From IMG/VR virus record IMGVR_UViG_3300043409_000172, positions 1 to 33,372 of that record: a stretch of 33,372 nt of DNA. The stretch is one strand, 5' to 3'. The number at the start of each line of letters is the position of its first letter. Position 1 is the first letter of the stretch. The position numbers and the translations under genes were made by a program. Below the pieces are notes generated by a model. The model was not told the DNA's origin, made no database searches, and saw only the letters and a list, made by a program, of their open reading frames with translations. This document shows positions 3,064 to 16,685 of this stretch, in pieces. The DNA is from a virus.

Positions 3064-3693
3064 TTATTTACCTTTCATTAATTGCATTTCCACTTCCACT
3101 TCATTCAAGAACTTCAAAACTTCTTCTTCCATCTTCTTTATAAATTCTTCTTCTCGCATAACTTCTTCTATATACAACTGTGATCTTGTCGGCATCCTTG
3201 GGTCAAATGATACGAACCAGACCGACTTAGCACCTGTGCATGACATCTGTGCTTGTATTTGGGTATAGTATTTTGATGGGCAACCATCCTTAAAATATGA
3301 CCAATGTACTGCACTTTGATATGGGCATTTCAACTCCAGCAAAGAATCACCAATAACACCATCAGGTGAGCATCCAAAGTTTTTAATTGTAGGATGATCG
3401 ACAAATGCAACTTGATCTACAAACACATTATGAGCAACTTCAAACGCTGTTCTAGCAGTCTGTTCGTTGTCTTTGCCATGTTGCATAGCATCATTGGTGT
3501 AAGAAGGCTCTATGACACCTGTTACTCGTTCTAAAGCAAGCTGAATTAAGTAATTACCTCTTGATGCTGATACACCTGTTTTAGTCTTAGCCATGACATC
3601 TGCTACACGACTAGCTGTCACCTTGCCTCTGCGAATCTCTAACCAGGCATCTGTTCCTTGTTCTACTTCTCTATATATTAATGATTCAGTCAT
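3064..3693 (-). CDS. YqaJ-like viral recombinase (lambda-exonuclease family)
   Basis: A 209-residue nuclease of the YqaJ / lambda Exo fold. Visible motifs are EQGTDAWLEIRRGKVTASR (11-29), HGKDNEQTAR with Glu77, CSPDGVIG with Asp111, and LLELKCP with Glu120 and Lys122. These make the PD-(D/E)xK metal site. QIQAQMSCTGAKSVWFVSFD follows, as is typical. It should resect dsDNA ends to give 3' single strands for the annealing protein at 5053-5601. The longer open frame reaches 3750, but the ATG at 3691-3693 has AGAGGA just upstream and overlaps the gene before by 8 bases, so it is the better start. Confidence 0.92.
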   Translation of the reverse strand: MTESLIYREVEQGTDAWLEIRRGKVTASRVADVMAKTKTGVSASRGNYLIQLALERVTGVIEPSYTNDAMQHGKDNEQTARTAFEVAHNVFVDQVAFVDHPTIKNFGCSPDGVIGDSLLELKCPYQSAVHWSYFKDGCPSKYYTQIQAQMSCTGAKSVWFVSFDPRMPTRSQLYIEEVMREEEFIKKMEEEVLKFLNEVEVEMQLMKGK

Positions 3694-4315
3694 TTTTTTC
3701 CTCTGTTGTATAGAACCAATCGTTACTTGTTGTCCACTTTCTTGTGCCATCTACTGACCATGTATGTTGTGCTGCTTGAAAATCAGGAAATTTAACTTCA
3801 TTAGGGATAAGACTTTGGTCATACCATAAACAACGATTATTAGGCTGACAAGCAAATTGACCATTTTCTAATTGAATGAAGTTAAAACTTTTATGTTCTT
3901 CAGCTTGTTCTGTAAAAGTCGTATCTAAGTCACCATCTGCACAGAAATCAACTGTAAATAAGTAATTACCAAAATGCCACTCTTTATCTTTACCTAAAAA
4001 CTTGACTCCTAAGTTACGAAGTGCAATCTTCTCAACAACAGTAAATCTATAGCCCATGCAATCCCATAACTGTAAGAAATCAACAGGTAAGTCACCATGA
4101 TCTTCTTTCCATACATACGCACTAATAGGCAGTTTGTCGTACAAAGCACCATAGTTAGGTAGTAGTGACTCAATACGAAATACTTGTCCTCTGAGAGCCT
4201 TTAAACTAATCCATACACAAGGTTCTAGTTCTCCATGACCTTTAGTAAAGTTATATAAGTATTCTCTTTTTACAAAGCATTTTAAGGGGGGTAATGATGC
4301 GACAATAAAACTCAT
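3686..4315 (-). CDS. conserved phage protein, unknown function
   Basis: A 209-residue soluble protein rich in aromatics and Cys. It contains KREYLYNFTKGHGELEPCVW, LLPNYGALYDKLPISAYVW and HKSFNFIQLENGQFACQPNN. I recall closely similar proteins in many environmental phages, always without a function. It lies directly before the YqaJ exonuclease and overlaps its start, so it is co-translated with recombination genes. No catalytic signature or membrane segment is seen. A role in recombination, replication or host takeover is only a guess. Confidence 0.8.
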   Translation of the reverse strand: MSFIVASLPPLKCFVKREYLYNFTKGHGELEPCVWISLKALRGQVFRIESLLPNYGALYDKLPISAYVWKEDHGDLPVDFLQLWDCMGYRFTVVEKIALRNLGVKFLGKDKEWHFGNYLFTVDFCADGDLDTTFTEQAEEHKSFNFIQLENGQFACQPNNRCLWYDQSLIPNEVKFPDFQAAQHTWSVDGTRKWTTSNDWFYTTEEKND

Positions 4316-4821: not shown

Positions 4822-5056
4822 TTCTAGCCTCCATCATTGCATCAGCATATAGATAAGCATCTCTAGATAGCAACTCTATGTCAATATCTATGGCTTGCAT
4901 ATTATTTAATGTGTAATAAATAGAATCAGGTAAAGCATAGGCTATTAGACTTTGAAAGGCTTTAGCTGCAAAGTAATCTCTTAAATCCATGCCGTAATCT
5001 GTTTTCCAACCATCACCACCACTAGATTTTGTTACATTTGTTGGAAATGCTTTCAT
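4808..5056 (-). CDS. small conserved phage protein, unknown
   Basis: An 82-residue acidic protein with KTDYGMDLRDYFAAKAFQSL in the first half and ELLSRDAYLYADAMMEARND at the end. The GMDLRDYFAAKA phrase recurs, from memory, in small hypothetical proteins of many phages that infect proteobacteria. The start overlaps the stop of the annealing-protein gene (ATGA), with GGGAG upstream. There is no membrane segment. Function unknown. Confidence 0.75.
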   Translation of the reverse strand: MKAFPTNVTKSSGGDGWKTDYGMDLRDYFAAKAFQSLIAYALPDSIYYTLNNMQAIDIDIELLSRDAYLYADAMMEARNDNK

Positions 5057-5601
5057 ACTAGTTCTCCCTTTCTTTTATCTTTTGCCTTAGAAATACGATC
5101 AATTGCAGCCTTATCTTTTGATAGTTCTTTATATGCTTGACCATAAGCAGCTTTAAGCGTATCCATATCTAAGCACTCACCTATCATGTCGCACCAGTTA
5201 GTACATAAATCAGTCAGATCAGGAGTTTCCTCATCTATTGCCTCAGATGGAAGATCAGAACCAGCATAGACATACATACCGATACCAAAACAGGCAATAT
5301 TCTTAGCCAAGCACCTCATTTGCGAGTCACTAATTTTGCGTGAGTCTGGTGATTTAGCAGCGTTATTTCTGTTATCCATTACCGATAATTGCATTTCTAA
5401 AGTCTTACCAAAAGCAGTAACCTCAGTCTTAACCATCATCGTATCGTTATAGATTACAGGCTCTAGGAACTTCCAAGTAGCTGTAGAATCGTTTTGCAAG
5501 AGGATGTCAAGGGCATAAGTCCAACTTAAATAGGTTAATTGTCCCTTGCGTTCGGTAAATTCATTTACATTAATAAGTCGTAATTCGTTAAAAGTTTTCA
5601 T
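5053..5601 (-). CDS. single-strand annealing protein, DUF1071 / Sak3 type
   Basis: A 182-residue protein. Family landmarks are RKGQLTYLSWTYALDILLQN, TMMVKTEVTAFGKTLEMQL, MDNRNNAA and the block MRCLAKNIACFGIGMYVYAG followed by SDLP. This is the DUF1071 (Sak3-like) recombinase that anneals complementary single strands, here paired with the YqaJ nuclease four genes downstream. The two would form a Red/RecET-like system for double-strand-break repair and genome recombination. The C-terminal third is more variable and helical. It overlaps the gene before and the gene after by 4 bases each. Confidence 0.9.
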   Translation of the reverse strand: MKTFNELRLINVNEFTERKGQLTYLSWTYALDILLQNDSTATWKFLEPVIYNDTMMVKTEVTAFGKTLEMQLSVMDNRNNAAKSPDSRKISDSQMRCLAKNIACFGIGMYVYAGSDLPSEAIDEETPDLTDLCTNWCDMIGECLDMDTLKAAYGQAYKELSKDKAAIDRISKAKDKRKGELV

Positions 5602-9111: not shown

Positions 9112-9373
9112 AGCACAGAAAGCACATTACGACAAAGTTGCACGATTAGGTTGCAGTTTATGTCGTTTTGTCTTAAAAATTGAAGATACTCCAACGGAAC
9201 TGCATCATATTCGTAAAGCTGGCAAACGAGTAGATGCACCTGTAATAGGCTTATGTCCAATCCATCATCGAGGTAGTAATACTGGAGTGCATGGACTTGG
9301 CAGGAGAGCATGGGAATCTCTGTATTCAACAACGGAAGAAGAATTATTAGAAAAGACATTGGCTCTATTATGA
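9104..9373 (+). CDS. Ref-like RecA-dependent nuclease (HNH type)
   Basis: An 89-residue protein. CSLCRF (17-22) is followed by ELHHIRKAGKR, then APVIGLCPIHHRG and GVHGLGRRAWE. The paired CxxC/CxxHH cysteines, the HHIR-x-GKR core and the GVHGLGRRAWE end match the Ref family. Ref of phage P1 is an HNH-fold nuclease that cuts DNA at RecA filaments. Here it is short and consists of little more than the nuclease core. It is co-located with a RusA resolvase, consistent with recombination or processing of replicated DNA. Confidence 0.85.
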   Translation: MTKAQKAHYDKVARLGCSLCRFVLKIEDTPTELHHIRKAGKRVDAPVIGLCPIHHRGSNTGVHGLGRRAWESLYSTTEEELLEKTLALL

Positions 9374-9699
9374 TCACCTTTCCTTGGCCACCCAAAGAAT
9401 TAAACCCAAATAATTGTAGTCACTATCACATAAAAGCCAAAAAAAAGGCTATTTACAAAGATATTTGCTATTGGATAACAAAAGAGGCTAATATACCAAA
9501 AGGTGATTACTCAGAGCTAAGTATTGTCTTTTACAAACCAAATCGAAGATGGATGGACTTGGATAATATGTTAGCAAGTATCAAAAGTGGGTTAGATGGT
9601 ATGTGTTTAGCGTTGGAAATTGATGACAGGTGCTTTACAAAAATAACAATAGAAATACATAAAGATATTTGTGGATTGATAAAAATTGAGTTAAAATAG
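9370..9699 (+). CDS. rusA: RusA-like Holliday junction resolvase
   Basis: A 109-residue protein beginning MITFPWPPKELNPNN. The RusA active-site signature is seen as RRWMDLDNMLASIKSGLDGM with Asp63, Asp65 and Asp76, followed by Asp85-Asp86. These acidic residues bind the metal ions that cut four-way junctions. The open frame extends back to 9310, but the ATG at 9370 overlaps the previous stop (ATGA) and starts exactly where the family starts. It would resolve recombination intermediates made by the annealing protein and exonuclease before packaging. Confidence 0.9.
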   Translation: MITFPWPPKELNPNNCSHYHIKAKKKAIYKDICYWITKEANIPKGDYSELSIVFYKPNRRWMDLDNMLASIKSGLDGMCLALEIDDRCFTKITIEIHKDICGLIKIELK

Positions 9700-12216: not shown

Positions 12217-12552
12217 ATGGACAAAAAACTGACGAAAACTGACGATGTAAGGTTAAAAAATCTTAGTAGAGCAGGCAGACCAGCAGGAATACCTAACAGA
12301 AGCACTACGCTTGCACGAGAAGCGATTGCTGGATTTGTTGATGCTAATGCTCACAAAATGCAAGAGTGGCTTGAGAAGGTCGCTAATGGTGTCCAAACAG
12401 ATGATGGTAAATGGGTAGTACCTCCATCACCTGATAAAGCGTTTACTATGCTACAACAAGTCATGGAGTATCACTTACCTAAACTTGCTAGACAAGAAGT
12501 AGTAGGAGACGAGGCAAAGCCAATCCACTATAGGTTTTCATGGAAGAAGTAG
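12217..12552 (+). CDS. terS: terminase small subunit
   Basis: A 111-residue protein. The N-terminal AGRPAGIPNRSTTLAREAI is a typical phage small-terminase or DUF5681-like start. Helical segments MQEWLEKVANG and FTMLQQVMEYHLPKLARQ follow. It would recognise the packaging site and stimulate the large subunit. It lies directly before terL and overlaps it by 13 bases in another frame. It has no clear extended DNA-binding domain, so the call rests on position and the N-terminal pattern. Confidence 0.8.
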   Translation: MDKKLTKTDDVRLKNLSRAGRPAGIPNRSTTLAREAIAGFVDANAHKMQEWLEKVANGVQTDDGKWVVPPSPDKAFTMLQQVMEYHLPKLARQEVVGDEAKPIHYRFSWKK

Positions 12553-13889
12553 TCGAGATAGAACTTGATTACAGTCCTAGAACTGTATTCGAGGGATTTC
12601 ACGATAGAACAGAGAGATGGGCAGTCATAGTCGCACATAGAAGATGTGGAAAGACTGTGGCTGTACTCAATGACACCATCTATAGGGCATTGACAGAAAA
12701 CAAAGAGAATGGTCAGTATGGGTACATTGCACCTTACTACTCACAGGCTAAGTCTATTGCTTGGTCATACTTATTACGCTTTAGTGAACCTGTACGCAAG
12801 ACTGCTAATCAATCTGAGTTATGGGTAGAACTAATCAATGGCTCAAAGATACGACTATTTGGGGGAGACAATCCAGATGCTTTGAGGGGAAATTACCTTG
12901 ATGGGGTAGTTTTAGACGAGATGGCAGATATGAAACCTAATCTTTGGGGTCAAATCGTGAGACCTCTACTTTCTGATCGCCTCGGCTGGGCCACCTTTAT
13001 AGGAACTCCGAAGGGACATAACGGATTCTATGACATTTTTAGCAAGGCAGAGCAACAAGATAACTGGTATGTAAAAGTCCTACGAGCAAGTCAAACAGGT
13101 ATATTACCTAGAGATGAGTTGGATGATGCAAGGTCTATGATGACAGAAGATCAGTATGAGGCTGAGTTCGAGTGTAATTTCGAAAGTGCAATCCTTGGTG
13201 CATACTTTGGAGTCCAAATGCGACAGATAATGGATGAGGGCAGAATCACGACAGTTGAGTATGATCCACTATTTCCTTGTTATACATCTTGGGACTTGGG
13301 TTACAGCGATGATACTGCGATATTTTGGTTTCAAGCTGTATTGGGAGAGATACGAGTCTTAGACTACCACTCAAGTAATGGTGAGAACATTGATTACTAT
13401 ACAAACCTAATCAAATCTAAAGAGAGGGAATATGGGTACAAATATGGCACTCATTGGCTACCTCACGATGCTAGAGCAAAGACTTTAAGTTCAGGTGGTA
13501 AGTCAGTTATTGAGCAAATAGCTACTAAAATACCTATAGAAACGCTTAAAATAGTACCTAATCTATCATTACAAGATGGAATACAAGCATCAAGGATGGC
13601 ATTACAAAGGGCTTGGTTTGACACTAAATGTCAAGAAGGTATAGAATGTCTAAGACAGTACCAAAGAGAATATGATGAGGACAAGAAGGTCTTTAGGGAT
13701 AAACCTAGACACGATTGGACAAGTCATGGTGCAGATGCGTGGAGATACCTCTCTATAGCGTATCGAGAAGAAGAAAAACCAATCTTGAAAGACCACTCAA
13801 TCAAGGGGTTATATGTAGGGCAAACAGATGTAACTTTGGATGAGATGTGGAAATTATCACCTAGACCAAACAGAAACGGAAGAATTTAA
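12540..13889 (+). CDS. terL: terminase large subunit
   Basis: A 449-residue packaging motor and nuclease. Walker A is AHRRCGKT (32-39), Walker B is DGVVLDE (121-127) with catalytic Glu127, and the coupling motif is FIGTPKG (153-159). The RNase-H-like nuclease domain starts near SWDLGYSDDTAIFW and includes HDWTSHGADAWRYL near the end. It ends DEMWKLSPRPNRNGRI. A second, diverged copy of this same ending (EMWAVSPKPRSGRI) lies 540 bases downstream, after the homing endonuclease gene. Its TAA overlaps the endonuclease ATG (TAATG). The enzyme translocates DNA into the prohead and cuts genome units. Confidence 0.95.
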   Translation: MEEVVEIELDYSPRTVFEGFHDRTERWAVIVAHRRCGKTVAVLNDTIYRALTENKENGQYGYIAPYYSQAKSIAWSYLLRFSEPVRKTANQSELWVELINGSKIRLFGGDNPDALRGNYLDGVVLDEMADMKPNLWGQIVRPLLSDRLGWATFIGTPKGHNGFYDIFSKAEQQDNWYVKVLRASQTGILPRDELDDARSMMTEDQYEAEFECNFESAILGAYFGVQMRQIMDEGRITTVEYDPLFPCYTSWDLGYSDDTAIFWFQAVLGEIRVLDYHSSNGENIDYYTNLIKSKEREYGYKYGTHWLPHDARAKTLSSGGKSVIEQIATKIPIETLKIVPNLSLQDGIQASRMALQRAWFDTKCQEGIECLRQYQREYDEDKKVFRDKPRHDWTSHGADAWRYLSIAYREEEKPILKDHSIKGLYVGQTDVTLDEMWKLSPRPNRNGRI

Positions 13890-14383
13890 TGTTTTGCACT
13901 TACTTGCATAAAAGATCGTCAGATAATAAGGTGTTTTATGTAGGCATGGGGAATCCTAACAGACCAAATAATTTATATCAAAGACCTGCACATTGGAAGA
14001 AAGTTAAGAATGAGCATGGTGTAAAGGTTGAAATAGTTGCATCTTGGGATACATTAGATGATGCGTGTTCTCATGAGAAGTTGTTAATTTCTGTATTTAA
14101 AGACTTAGGACATCCATTAATTAATAAAACATCTGGTGGATTGGGGAATGATTATCCTAAAACACAAGAACATAAAGAAGCACACAGTATTAAAATGTTG
14201 GGTAATTCTCATGCTAAAGGTAATAAATATAGCAATGAAGTTAAGCAGCATTTAAGTAATGTTCGTAAAGGGGTAAAAAAGCCCTCTATGATGTGTTTAG
14301 ACTGTGGCAAGGTATGTGGTGGTGGCAGTAATATAAGACAACATCAAAAACATCAAGATCATGTAGGTTTTTTTGAGTTGTAA
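13842..14383 (+). mobile_element. putative homing cassette: new terL 3' end plus endonuclease
   Basis: The unit spans the last 15 codons of terL (13842-13889) and the whole endonuclease gene. It is followed by the displaced second copy of the terL tail (14389-14433). Its left limit is approximate, because the donor terL segment could extend further upstream by co-conversion. No intron core and no terminal repeats of a transposon are present, so it resembles intronless homing. Confidence 0.55.
13889..14383 (+). CDS. GIY-YIG homing endonuclease with NUMOD3 and zinc-finger tail
   Basis: A 164-residue freestanding endonuclease. The GIY-YIG core is TYLHKRS (4-10) and FYVGMG (16-21), with basic residues at QRPAHWKK (31-38), catalytic-type Glu63 in HEKLL, and LINKTSGGLG. 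GNSHAKGNKYSNEVKQHLSN is a NUMOD3-type DNA-binding motif. The C-terminus, CLDCGKVC with QHQKHQDH, looks like a zinc finger. It is inserted exactly between terL and the portal gene, with a duplicated terL tail after it. That fits a mobile gene that brought its own terL 3' end. The ribosome site is GGAAGAAT inside terL. Confidence 0.88.
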   Translation: MFCTYLHKRSSDNKVFYVGMGNPNRPNNLYQRPAHWKKVKNEHGVKVEIVASWDTLDDACSHEKLLISVFKDLGHPLINKTSGGLGNDYPKTQEHKEAHSIKMLGNSHAKGNKYSNEVKQHLSNVRKGVKKPSMMCLDCGKVCGGGSNIRQHQKHQDHVGFFEL

Positions 14384-14388
14384 ATTGT

Positions 14389-14433
14389 GAAATGTGGGCA
14401 GTATCGCCTAAACCTAGGAGTGGAAGAATATGA
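14389..14433 (+). pseudogene. displaced remnant of terL 3' end (EMWAVSPKPRSGRI)
   Basis: Frame 14389-14433 reads EMWAVSPKPRSGRI then TGA, matching the terL end EMWKLSPRPNRNGRI with one codon missing and changed third bases. The TGA overlaps the portal ATG (ATGA), which is probably the ancestral terL-portal junction. The stretch has no start codon of its own but keeps GGAGTGGAAG, which serves as the portal ribosome site. That may be why it survived. Confidence 0.8.
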
Positions 14434-16685
14434 ATCACGATTATACGGATTGGTATAACAGAATACTTAGCTACGAGAGAGCCTTTAAGAAGTGGGAAGG
14501 TAGAGCAGATAAGATACTAAAACGCTATCGTGACGATTCAAGAACACAGAACAATCCTAATGCTAGGTTTAACATTCTATACAGTAATGTCCAAACAATA
14601 ACCCCAGCTATCTTTGCTAGACTTCCTAGACCTGATGTAACTAGACGATTTAAGGACAACGATCCGATTGGTCGAGTAGCTTGTACTATGCTTGAACGAG
14701 CATTAGAGTATGAGTTAGAACACTATTCAGACTATAAAACAGCAATGGATAGTGCAGTTTTTGACAGAATGATTGGTGGTCGAGGAACTGCATGGGTACG
14801 CTATGAACCACATATTGTTGCTGACGAACAAGGCTTACCTGAAGATGGTCTACAGATTACTGAAGATACAGACGAAGATGAGTCCAACGAGGGTATGCTT
14901 TCTGAAGCACCTGAAAGAATTGAATACGAATGTGCACCATGCGATTATGTCCATTGGAGAGACTTTGGTCACTCAGTAGGTAGAACATGGGAAGAAGTAA
15001 CTTGGGTATATCGTAAAGTTTACATGAATCGAGATGCTCTAGTTGAGCGTTTTGGCGATGACTTAGGCTATCAGATACCTTTAGATACAAAGCCTGAAGA
15101 AGGTAAGACTTACTCACAAAATCAGAATATGCGTGAACAAGCGTGTATTTATGAGATATGGGACAAAGAGTCTGGTGATGTACTGTGGATTTCTAAAGCA
15201 ATGGGCAAGATTCTTGATGAGAAACCTGATCCATTAGAGTTAGAGGACTTTTGGCCTTGTCCAAAGCCTTTATTCTCAAACATTACTACTGAGAACTTAG
15301 AGCCAATTCCTGATTTTACGATGTATCAAGACCAAGCTAAAGAGTTAGATACGCTTGCAGATCGTATTGATGGACTAATTAACGCATTGAAAGTAAGAGG
15401 AGTCTACGATGCTAGTGCATCTGAACTCAATCGACTGTTTAGTGAGGGTGAGAATAACTCGCTACTTCCTGTTAAGAATTGGGCAGCGTTTGCTGAGAAA
15501 CAAGGACTCAAGGGTGCTATTGACTTAGTAGACATTACACCTTTTGCGTCTGCTTTGATGTCGTGTTACCAAGCAATGGAACAAGTAAAGTCCCAAATTT
15601 ACGAGATTATGGGGATTGCTGACATTCAAAGGGGTCAAACAGACCCTAATGAAACACTAGGTGCTCAGATAATCAAGAGTAATAACGCTGCTGGTCGATT
15701 AAAGACTATGCAACACAATGTTGTAAACTTTGCGACTAAGATTCTCAACATCAAAGCACAGATCATTTGCAGACACTTTACAGAAGAAACAATAGTTAGA
15801 ATAAGTGGTGCAGCACAGTTATCAGATAACGATAAGCAACTTGTACCTCAAGCATTAGCACTACTCAAAGACGAGAGTGCAAAGAATTTTAGGATAGAAG
15901 TTACCTCAGATTCGATGATTTACCAAGATGAGATGCAAGAGAAGCAAGATCGCATGGAGTTCTTGAGTGCAGTAGGTAATTTTATGCAAAACATCATACC
16001 TTTAGGACAAAATGCACCTGAATTAGTACCAATGGCTATGGAAATGCTCAAGTTTGGTGTCACAGGGTTCAAAGTAGGTAAAGGTTTAGAGGGTTTAATT
16101 GACGAAACAGCAGATAAACTCAAAGAAATGGCTAAACAACCACGACAACCACAGCCTAATCCTGAGATGATGAAGATTCAAGCACAAAGCCAGGCTAAAC
16201 AAGCTGAAATGCAGATGAACGCACAGTTAGAACAAGCGAAAATGCAACAACAGATGCAAGTTGAGCAACATAAACAAGAGATGCAAGCACAAGAGAACAC
16301 GCTACGCAACCAGTTAGAGGCTCAACGACAGACTATGGATCGTGAGATGGAGATGAAGTTAGCCCAAATGAAGATGATGACAGAGAGGAACACACAGATT
16401 CTTCTTGCATACATCAATAATGGTGCGAAGATCGAAACTGCACGAATATCTAATGGTTTAGACGATGGTGCAATGGCTTATGCAGAGTATCAGAATGACG
16501 AAGATATGATGAAAGCCCAAGAGCATCCTCTAGCACCTATAGCCAATGCAATTAGTCAAGGTAATCAGAGTATGACTAATACAATAGGGCAGTTAATAGG
16601 TACTTTACAACAACAGCAAGAGGCATCAAACAGACCAAAACAAGTAATTAGGGATGAGCAAGGCAAAATTGTAGGAGTCCAGTGA
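14430..16685 (+). CDS. portal protein, P22-like
   Basis: A 751-residue protein, the size of P22-type portals. The N-terminal half has RFNILYSNVQTITPAIFARL (about 46-65), a PDVTRRF motif and CAPCDYVHWRDFGHSVGRTW. The core contains MGIADIQRGQTDPNETLGAQ, typical of this family. The C-terminal 170 residues are a Gln/Met-rich helix (MQMNAQLEQAKMQQQMQVEQ) that would form the barrel or crown. A dodecamer of this protein makes the DNA channel at the capsid vertex and docks terminase, then the tail. The start overlaps the displaced terL tail. Confidence 0.9.
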   Translation: MNHDYTDWYNRILSYERAFKKWEGRADKILKRYRDDSRTQNNPNARFNILYSNVQTITPAIFARLPRPDVTRRFKDNDPIGRVACTMLERALEYELEHYSDYKTAMDSAVFDRMIGGRGTAWVRYEPHIVADEQGLPEDGLQITEDTDEDESNEGMLSEAPERIEYECAPCDYVHWRDFGHSVGRTWEEVTWVYRKVYMNRDALVERFGDDLGYQIPLDTKPEEGKTYSQNQNMREQACIYEIWDKESGDVLWISKAMGKILDEKPDPLELEDFWPCPKPLFSNITTENLEPIPDFTMYQDQAKELDTLADRIDGLINALKVRGVYDASASELNRLFSEGENNSLLPVKNWAAFAEKQGLKGAIDLVDITPFASALMSCYQAMEQVKSQIYEIMGIADIQRGQTDPNETLGAQIIKSNNAAGRLKTMQHNVVNFATKILNIKAQIICRHFTEETIVRISGAAQLSDNDKQLVPQALALLKDESAKNFRIEVTSDSMIYQDEMQEKQDRMEFLSAVGNFMQNIIPLGQNAPELVPMAMEMLKFGVTGFKVGKGLEGLIDETADKLKEMAKQPRQPQPNPEMMKIQAQSQAKQAEMQMNAQLEQAKMQQQMQVEQHKQEMQAQENTLRNQLEAQRQTMDREMEMKLAQMKMMTERNTQILLAYINNGAKIETARISNGLDDGAMAYAEYQNDEDMMKAQEHPLAPIANAISQGNQSMTNTIGQLIGTLQQQQEASNRPKQVIRDEQGKIVGVQ

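Follow-up and report, generated by a model that had tools for sequence, protein, structure and literature searches.

A GIY-YIG endonuclease gene inserted at the terL/portal junction of a tailed phage, probably by intronless homing with a recoded terL 3' end

The terL/portal junction of a tailed-phage contig (IMG/VR record IMGVR_UViG_3300043409_000172; the window, hereafter, is the whole stretch of 33,372 nucleotides that was analyzed) contains a 549-bp insert composed of a short terL 3' end and a free-standing GIY-YIG endonuclease gene, and the native end of terL is displaced to the downstream side of that gene. Comparison of this sequence with its relatives makes it probable that the insert entered an endonuclease-free (HEG-less) relative as a single cassette by intronless homing, with the endonuclease traveling together with the recoded end of the adjacent essential gene. 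In compact phage genomes, free-standing homing endonuclease genes must enter without breaking essential genes, and the intermediates are seldom observed. In this case, natural phages display the empty site, the filled site and its displaced original end, and the donor-type arrangement.

The insert and its empty site

The original prediction held that the end of terL occurs twice, on either side of the endonuclease gene. Both copies are present: the upstream tail, EMWKLSPRPNRNGRI and its stop codon, lies at positions 13842-13889, and the downstream tail, EMWAVSPKPRSGRI and its stop codon, lies at 14389-14433, in frame, with its TGA (14431-14433) overlapping the portal ATG (14430) as ATGA. Aligned with each other, they match at 35 of 51 columns. 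None of 3,311 other 49-nt positions sampled genome-wide matches the upstream tail to this degree, so the similarity is above chance, but the margin is small (a tail-to-tail local score of 25 against a genome maximum of 23). We accept the duplication despite this small margin because comparison with relatives settles the matter.

The terL relatives were taken from IMG/VR (at least 80 loci); the junction counts given here describe a sample rather than a survey. Among the matches listed, 17 relatives have no endonuclease gene at the junction (L002-L009, L011-L015, L018, and L022-L024). Their sole terL tail is EMWAVSPKPRSGRI with a TGA that overlaps the portal ATG, which is the empty site that had been predicted, and no second tail copy was found in any of the 17. 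The window's downstream, or orphan, tail (46 nt) is identical to the functional tail of 11 of these relatives, differs by one or two bases in five, and differs by four in L011. Close relatives at these 17 loci thus carry the HEG-less allele at the same site, as intronless homing requires. Among the junctions sampled, the duplicated tail is found in one contig only, that of the window.

Because the relatives with an empty site end terL in what is the orphan copy of the window, aligning the window to their junctions sets the edges of the insert at 13839 and 14387. It lies between ACTTTG and TGAAATG and takes the place of the two bases found there in the relatives (AA in 16, TC in L011). To the left of the insert, 5-9 of 150 nt differ from the HEG-less relatives (18 in L015); to the right, 1-15 of 150 nt do. 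The native part of terL, which encodes the terminase large subunit (12540-13838, plus strand; phrog_2, E=1.5e-39; whole open reading frame, 12540-13889), is 93-97% identical at the amino acid level to that of 14 HEG-less relatives over a full-length or nearly full-length match, and its last 300 nt diverge from the relatives by 2-4%. The native portal protein gene (14430-16685, plus strand; phrog_12082 portal, E=2.5e-180) is 97-99% identical in amino acids to its nearest HEG-less relatives. The GC content of the insert is 0.339, compared with 0.408 for terL and 0.403 for portal.

The insert opens with the terL 3' end that it supplies (13839-13889, plus strand), DEMWKLSPRPNRNGRI followed by a stop codon. 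The endonuclease gene comes next (13889-14383, plus strand; 164 aa; phrog_314 homing endonuclease, E=3.3e-11), its ATG overlapping the terL stop by one nucleotide (TAATG). Four bases, ATTG (14384-14387, plus strand), separate the endonuclease stop from the returning native sequence and form the right edge of the insert by the empty-site comparison. The displaced native terL 3' end follows at 14388-14433 (plus strand). Within it we note a possible mini-ORF of 13 codons, MWAVSPKPRSGRI and a stop (14392-14433, plus strand), whose stop overlaps the portal start and which would keep the original ATGA coupling, and a candidate ribosome-binding site for portal, AGGAG (14416-14420, plus strand), 9 nt before the ATG. 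The CTTTG at the insert edge fits an I-TevI-style CNNNG pattern; this motif is common, and we give it no weight.

The endonuclease gene stands free of any intron or intein, as terL stops ahead of it. No Rfam match or structured RNA indicative of an intron was found, and we rejected an intron because terL has its own stop codon and no Rfam family matches. The residues Y5, Y17-x-G19, R25, E63, and N79, which correspond to the GIY/YIG strands and the catalytic Arg, Glu, and Asn, are invariant in 26 homologs. The AlphaFold model (pLDDT, 86.5) has the GIY-YIG fold; its best PDB match is the I-TevI catalytic domain (1ln0; probability 0.99, with a weak E value of 0.096), and the UvrC N-domain is also among the best matches. 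A Pfam search returned no significant family. The C terminus bears a C2H2-type zinc-finger-like motif (CLDCG...HQKHQDH). The gene is probably selfish.

Two observations on the relatives belong here. Four of the HEG-less set (L018 and L022-L024) have a mosaic terL with an internal recombination point: its identity is about 80% over most of its length and rises to about 97% toward the 3' end. A further relative, L010 (IMGVR_UViG_3300027971_001226), has a contig that stops 3 nt beyond the point of insertion in the window (...ACTTTGAAT); in this single case, filled and empty alleles might coexist in the sample.

The upstream tail and the donor-type arrangement

The stretch just before 13889 had been predicted to look like a different lineage. 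It does depart sharply from its clade: 13 of 48 aligned nt are substituted, whereas the 300 nt before them have 7-12 substitutions (Fisher p 2e-6 to 5e-8, assuming independent sites), and the edge falls at 13839, about 50 bases upstream. The changes include amino acid changes, and the tail is 3 nt (one codon) longer than that of the clade. It encodes W-K (TGG-AAA), which is common in other clades, whereas its own clade has W-A. Its nucleotide identity to the tails of other sampled clades is much the same as to those of its own clade (67-71%). The co-converted flank is a terL end of 51 nt bounded by native sequence, and the gene has a foreign or recoded 3' end fused in frame and a native 3' end displaced 3' of the endonuclease, as do the fungal mobile ORFs discussed below.

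Farther upstream, a terL patch at about 13166-13241 has 23-27 differences in 75 nt from all close relatives but one (L029) and is flanked by sequence of 4-20% divergence; it looks like a second allele of this segment. We considered it as part of a longer co-conversion tract and rejected it, as about 600 nt of native-like sequence lie between it and the insert and L029 shares the patch at 90%.

A donor-type arrangement occurs in a more distant phage, L250 (IMGVR_UViG_3300020158_000059), detected by an alignment-based scan. Its terL and portal are 66.6% and 69% identical to those of the window, and its endonuclease (163 aa), also at the terL/portal junction, shares 51% identity with the window's along its entire length; in the tree, the two endonucleases are sisters with a support of 100/100. 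The gene order is terL-TAATG-endonuclease-portal, with a single terL tail and the portal start 13 nt further on, and this is the arrangement expected of a donor. A stretch of 20 nt, GGGCAAACAGATGTAACTTT (13818-13837, plus strand), is identical in the window and L250 and stops 1 nt short of the insert edge; it is a candidate left recombination anchor. However, L250 is not the direct donor because its tail (LRELWNQPQVKRNDRI) is only 31/51 nt like the window's upstream tail, no nearer than the tails of other clades.

The search for a nearer donor gave nothing within its scope. Among 150 distinct terL/portal junctions sampled, none has an identical upstream tail; the back-translated tail pattern, sought as an exact match, returned 0 matches in IMG/VR; and a two-sequence endonuclease alignment scan gave nothing nearer than L250 among the matches listed. 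Among the matches listed, pattern-limited IMG/VR scans with the single endonuclease sequence and with the terL C terminus, and an endonuclease scan of bacterial genomes, gave no terL ending in KLSPRPNRNGRI.

A second GIY-YIG lineage at the same junction

GIY-YIG genes occupy 7 of 151 sampled terL/portal junctions; they are sporadic and belong to two lineages. Distant GIY-YIG genes, about 30% identical in amino acids to the window's, are found there in L135 (= L162), L145 (= L164), L163, and L165, and each encodes a zinc finger at its C terminus. L207 has a further GIY-YIG zinc-finger gene in this position (L207:3263-3820); it groups with the L135 lineage, and its stop codon overlaps the ATG of portal. 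In the tree, the junction genes fall into two separate groups, and a single origin of both groups is, strictly, still conceivable.

This second lineage also has a short flank of its own, on the other side. The endonuclease genes of L135, L145, and L163 are 92-96% identical in nucleotides, whereas the terL ends just upstream of them are only 71-80% alike, and each is 95-98% identical to that of a separate HEG-less phage. Over the initial 48 nt of portal, the three differ from one another at 0-1 positions. From every HEG-less kin tested they differ at nine or more positions (median, 10), compared with a median of 3 and a maximum of 9 among the HEG-less phages themselves; the recoding leaves the amino acid unchanged in 6-9 of the affected codons and alters it in 1-2. 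From nt 49 of portal onward, each of the three again resembles its own kin. Because these 48 nt are common to different backgrounds and the sequence is kin-like beyond them, the L135-type lineage travels with a recoded portal start, the mirror image of the recoded terL end in the window. Its presence in three backgrounds shows that such endonucleases move to this junction with short flanks.

Taken together, the two lineages lead us to a tentative proposal, somewhat less likely than not to hold: in this phage group, each junction endonuclease would carry a short recoded end of its target, one or the other essential neighbor (about 50 nt at the end of terL for the window's lineage, the first 48 nt of portal for that of L135, L145, and L163), so that the host gene is rescued, its protein stays intact, and the cut site is gone. 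With the cut site removed by the recoded end, the element would bring its own immunity from the enzyme and would not rely on insertion to destroy the target.

Proposed course of the insertion and known systems

The original prediction of a cassette that combined a diverged terL tail with the endonuclease, replaced the tail of the gene, and pushed the old one downstream is supported by the empty sites, the divergence at 13839, and L250. We propose the following course. The cassette would consist of the free-standing GIY-YIG gene together with the terL 3' end found before it in the donor phage. The endonuclease would cut the HEG-less allele near the terL/portal overlap, and the broken terL end would recombine with the donor terL, by strand invasion, in the conserved stretch that ends at 13838, so that the donor's diverged tail and the endonuclease are copied into the recipient by homologous repair from one side. 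The other end would then be rejoined by short or no homology at TGAAATG, with loss of the AA. Since that join lies outside portal, the tail native to the recipient would stay behind on the downstream side. The recoded tail keeps TerL whole and probably removes the target of the enzyme, and the orphan tail would still supply the ribosome site and the overlapping stop for portal. The AGGAG 9 nt before the portal ATG, the retained ATGA overlap, and the unchanged orphan sequence suggest that this is plausibly why the orphan remains; it may also be unchanged simply because the insertion is recent. The window encodes a RecE-like exonuclease (3064-3750, minus strand), a Sak-like single-strand annealing protein (5053-5601, minus strand), and a RusA-like resolvase (9310-9699, plus strand), a set that would suit short-homology repair.

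The tail and the endonuclease could also have been transferred passively by ordinary phage recombination (e.g., Sak-type annealing at short homology) without a cut by the enzyme, which we regard as unlikely. On the one hand, genes for a Sak-like annealing protein and an exonuclease are present in the phage, the mosaic terL of L018 and L022-L024 switches from ~80% to 97% identity within the gene, and a cut and a chance break look the same in sequence alone. On the other hand, GIY-YIG genes of two lineages have settled at the same place, the tracts are very short and end at the endonuclease, and the catalytic residues are intact. Quite improbable, in our judgment, is an endonuclease insertion into the overlap that duplicated the native tail, with the upstream copy then diverging in place: a tail pressed to escape the enzyme could change fast, and an exact-tail donor was not found in the scans made, but the upstream tail has 13 substitutions in 48 nt, some of which change amino acids, plus a 3-nt insertion, compared with 7-12 substitutions in the 300 nt before it and mostly 0-1 in the orphan, its W-K is that of other clades, and L250 has the terL-TAATG-endonuclease unit without any duplication. 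That an assembly chimera joined two phages is very improbable: the arrangement is known from a single assembled contig, and the L010 contig stops just past the insertion point, as assembly breaks do, but both flanks come from the same clade, the right join offers too little homology (at most about 7-10 nt) for an assembler to bridge, and neither side shows a disrupted frame or overlap.

Homing with a recoded gene end has its closest parallel in the mobile ORFs of fungal mitochondria, known from atp6 of Allomyces macrogynus (PMC3630166, PMC4019555) and from atp6, atp9, cox2, and nad3 of Glomus, where the atp9 element uses a GIY-YIG enzyme (PMC3630166). As in the window, a free-standing endonuclease comes with a foreign 3' end that is fused in frame, and the host gene's original 3' end is pushed beyond the endonuclease gene; that original copy clusters with its kin, unlike the inserted one (PMC3630166). 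Unlike the window, these elements are mitochondrial and mostly LAGLIDADG, and a role of their displaced copies in the following gene is usually not reported, whereas the window's orphan overlaps the portal start. A limited, narrow literature search found no phage example with a displaced gene end; within that search, the window extends to phage an architecture traced only to fungal mitochondria, and since the search was small, we do not claim priority.

Among phage systems, the GIY-YIG Seg enzymes of T4 (SegF and relatives) are also free-standing in intergenic junctions, absent from relatives, and associated with co-converted flanks (PMC2988022). However, they cut hundreds to thousands of bases away and leave long tracts with homology on both sides (PMC2988022), whereas the window has a tract of about 50 nt and retains the recipient's copy on one side. 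Free-standing phage enzymes usually cleave hundreds of bases from their gene (PMC2988022), which counts against homing in the window, as do the donor scans that yielded no direct donor, the tail of L250, alike at only 31/51 nt, and the occurrence of the duplicated tail in one contig. T4 mobA is likewise a phage homing endonuclease gene within an essential-type gene (topoisomerase genes 39/60) whose product is functional (PMC3014915); mobA splits the gene in two, whereas terL in the window stays whole because the cassette supplies a new end. In Skunavirus, an HNH endonuclease gene (HrdP) also lies at the terL/portal junction (PMC12724721), but it is present in all Skunavirus genomes and is thought to act in packaging (PMC12724721), whereas the GIY-YIG genes described here are sporadic.

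The terL/portal junction holds other genes as well: about 31 of the sampled loci (e.g., L020, L036, L049, and L125) carry a small ORF, about 100 codons long, in the gap of about 300-330 nt that separates terL from portal; the window's clade lacks it.
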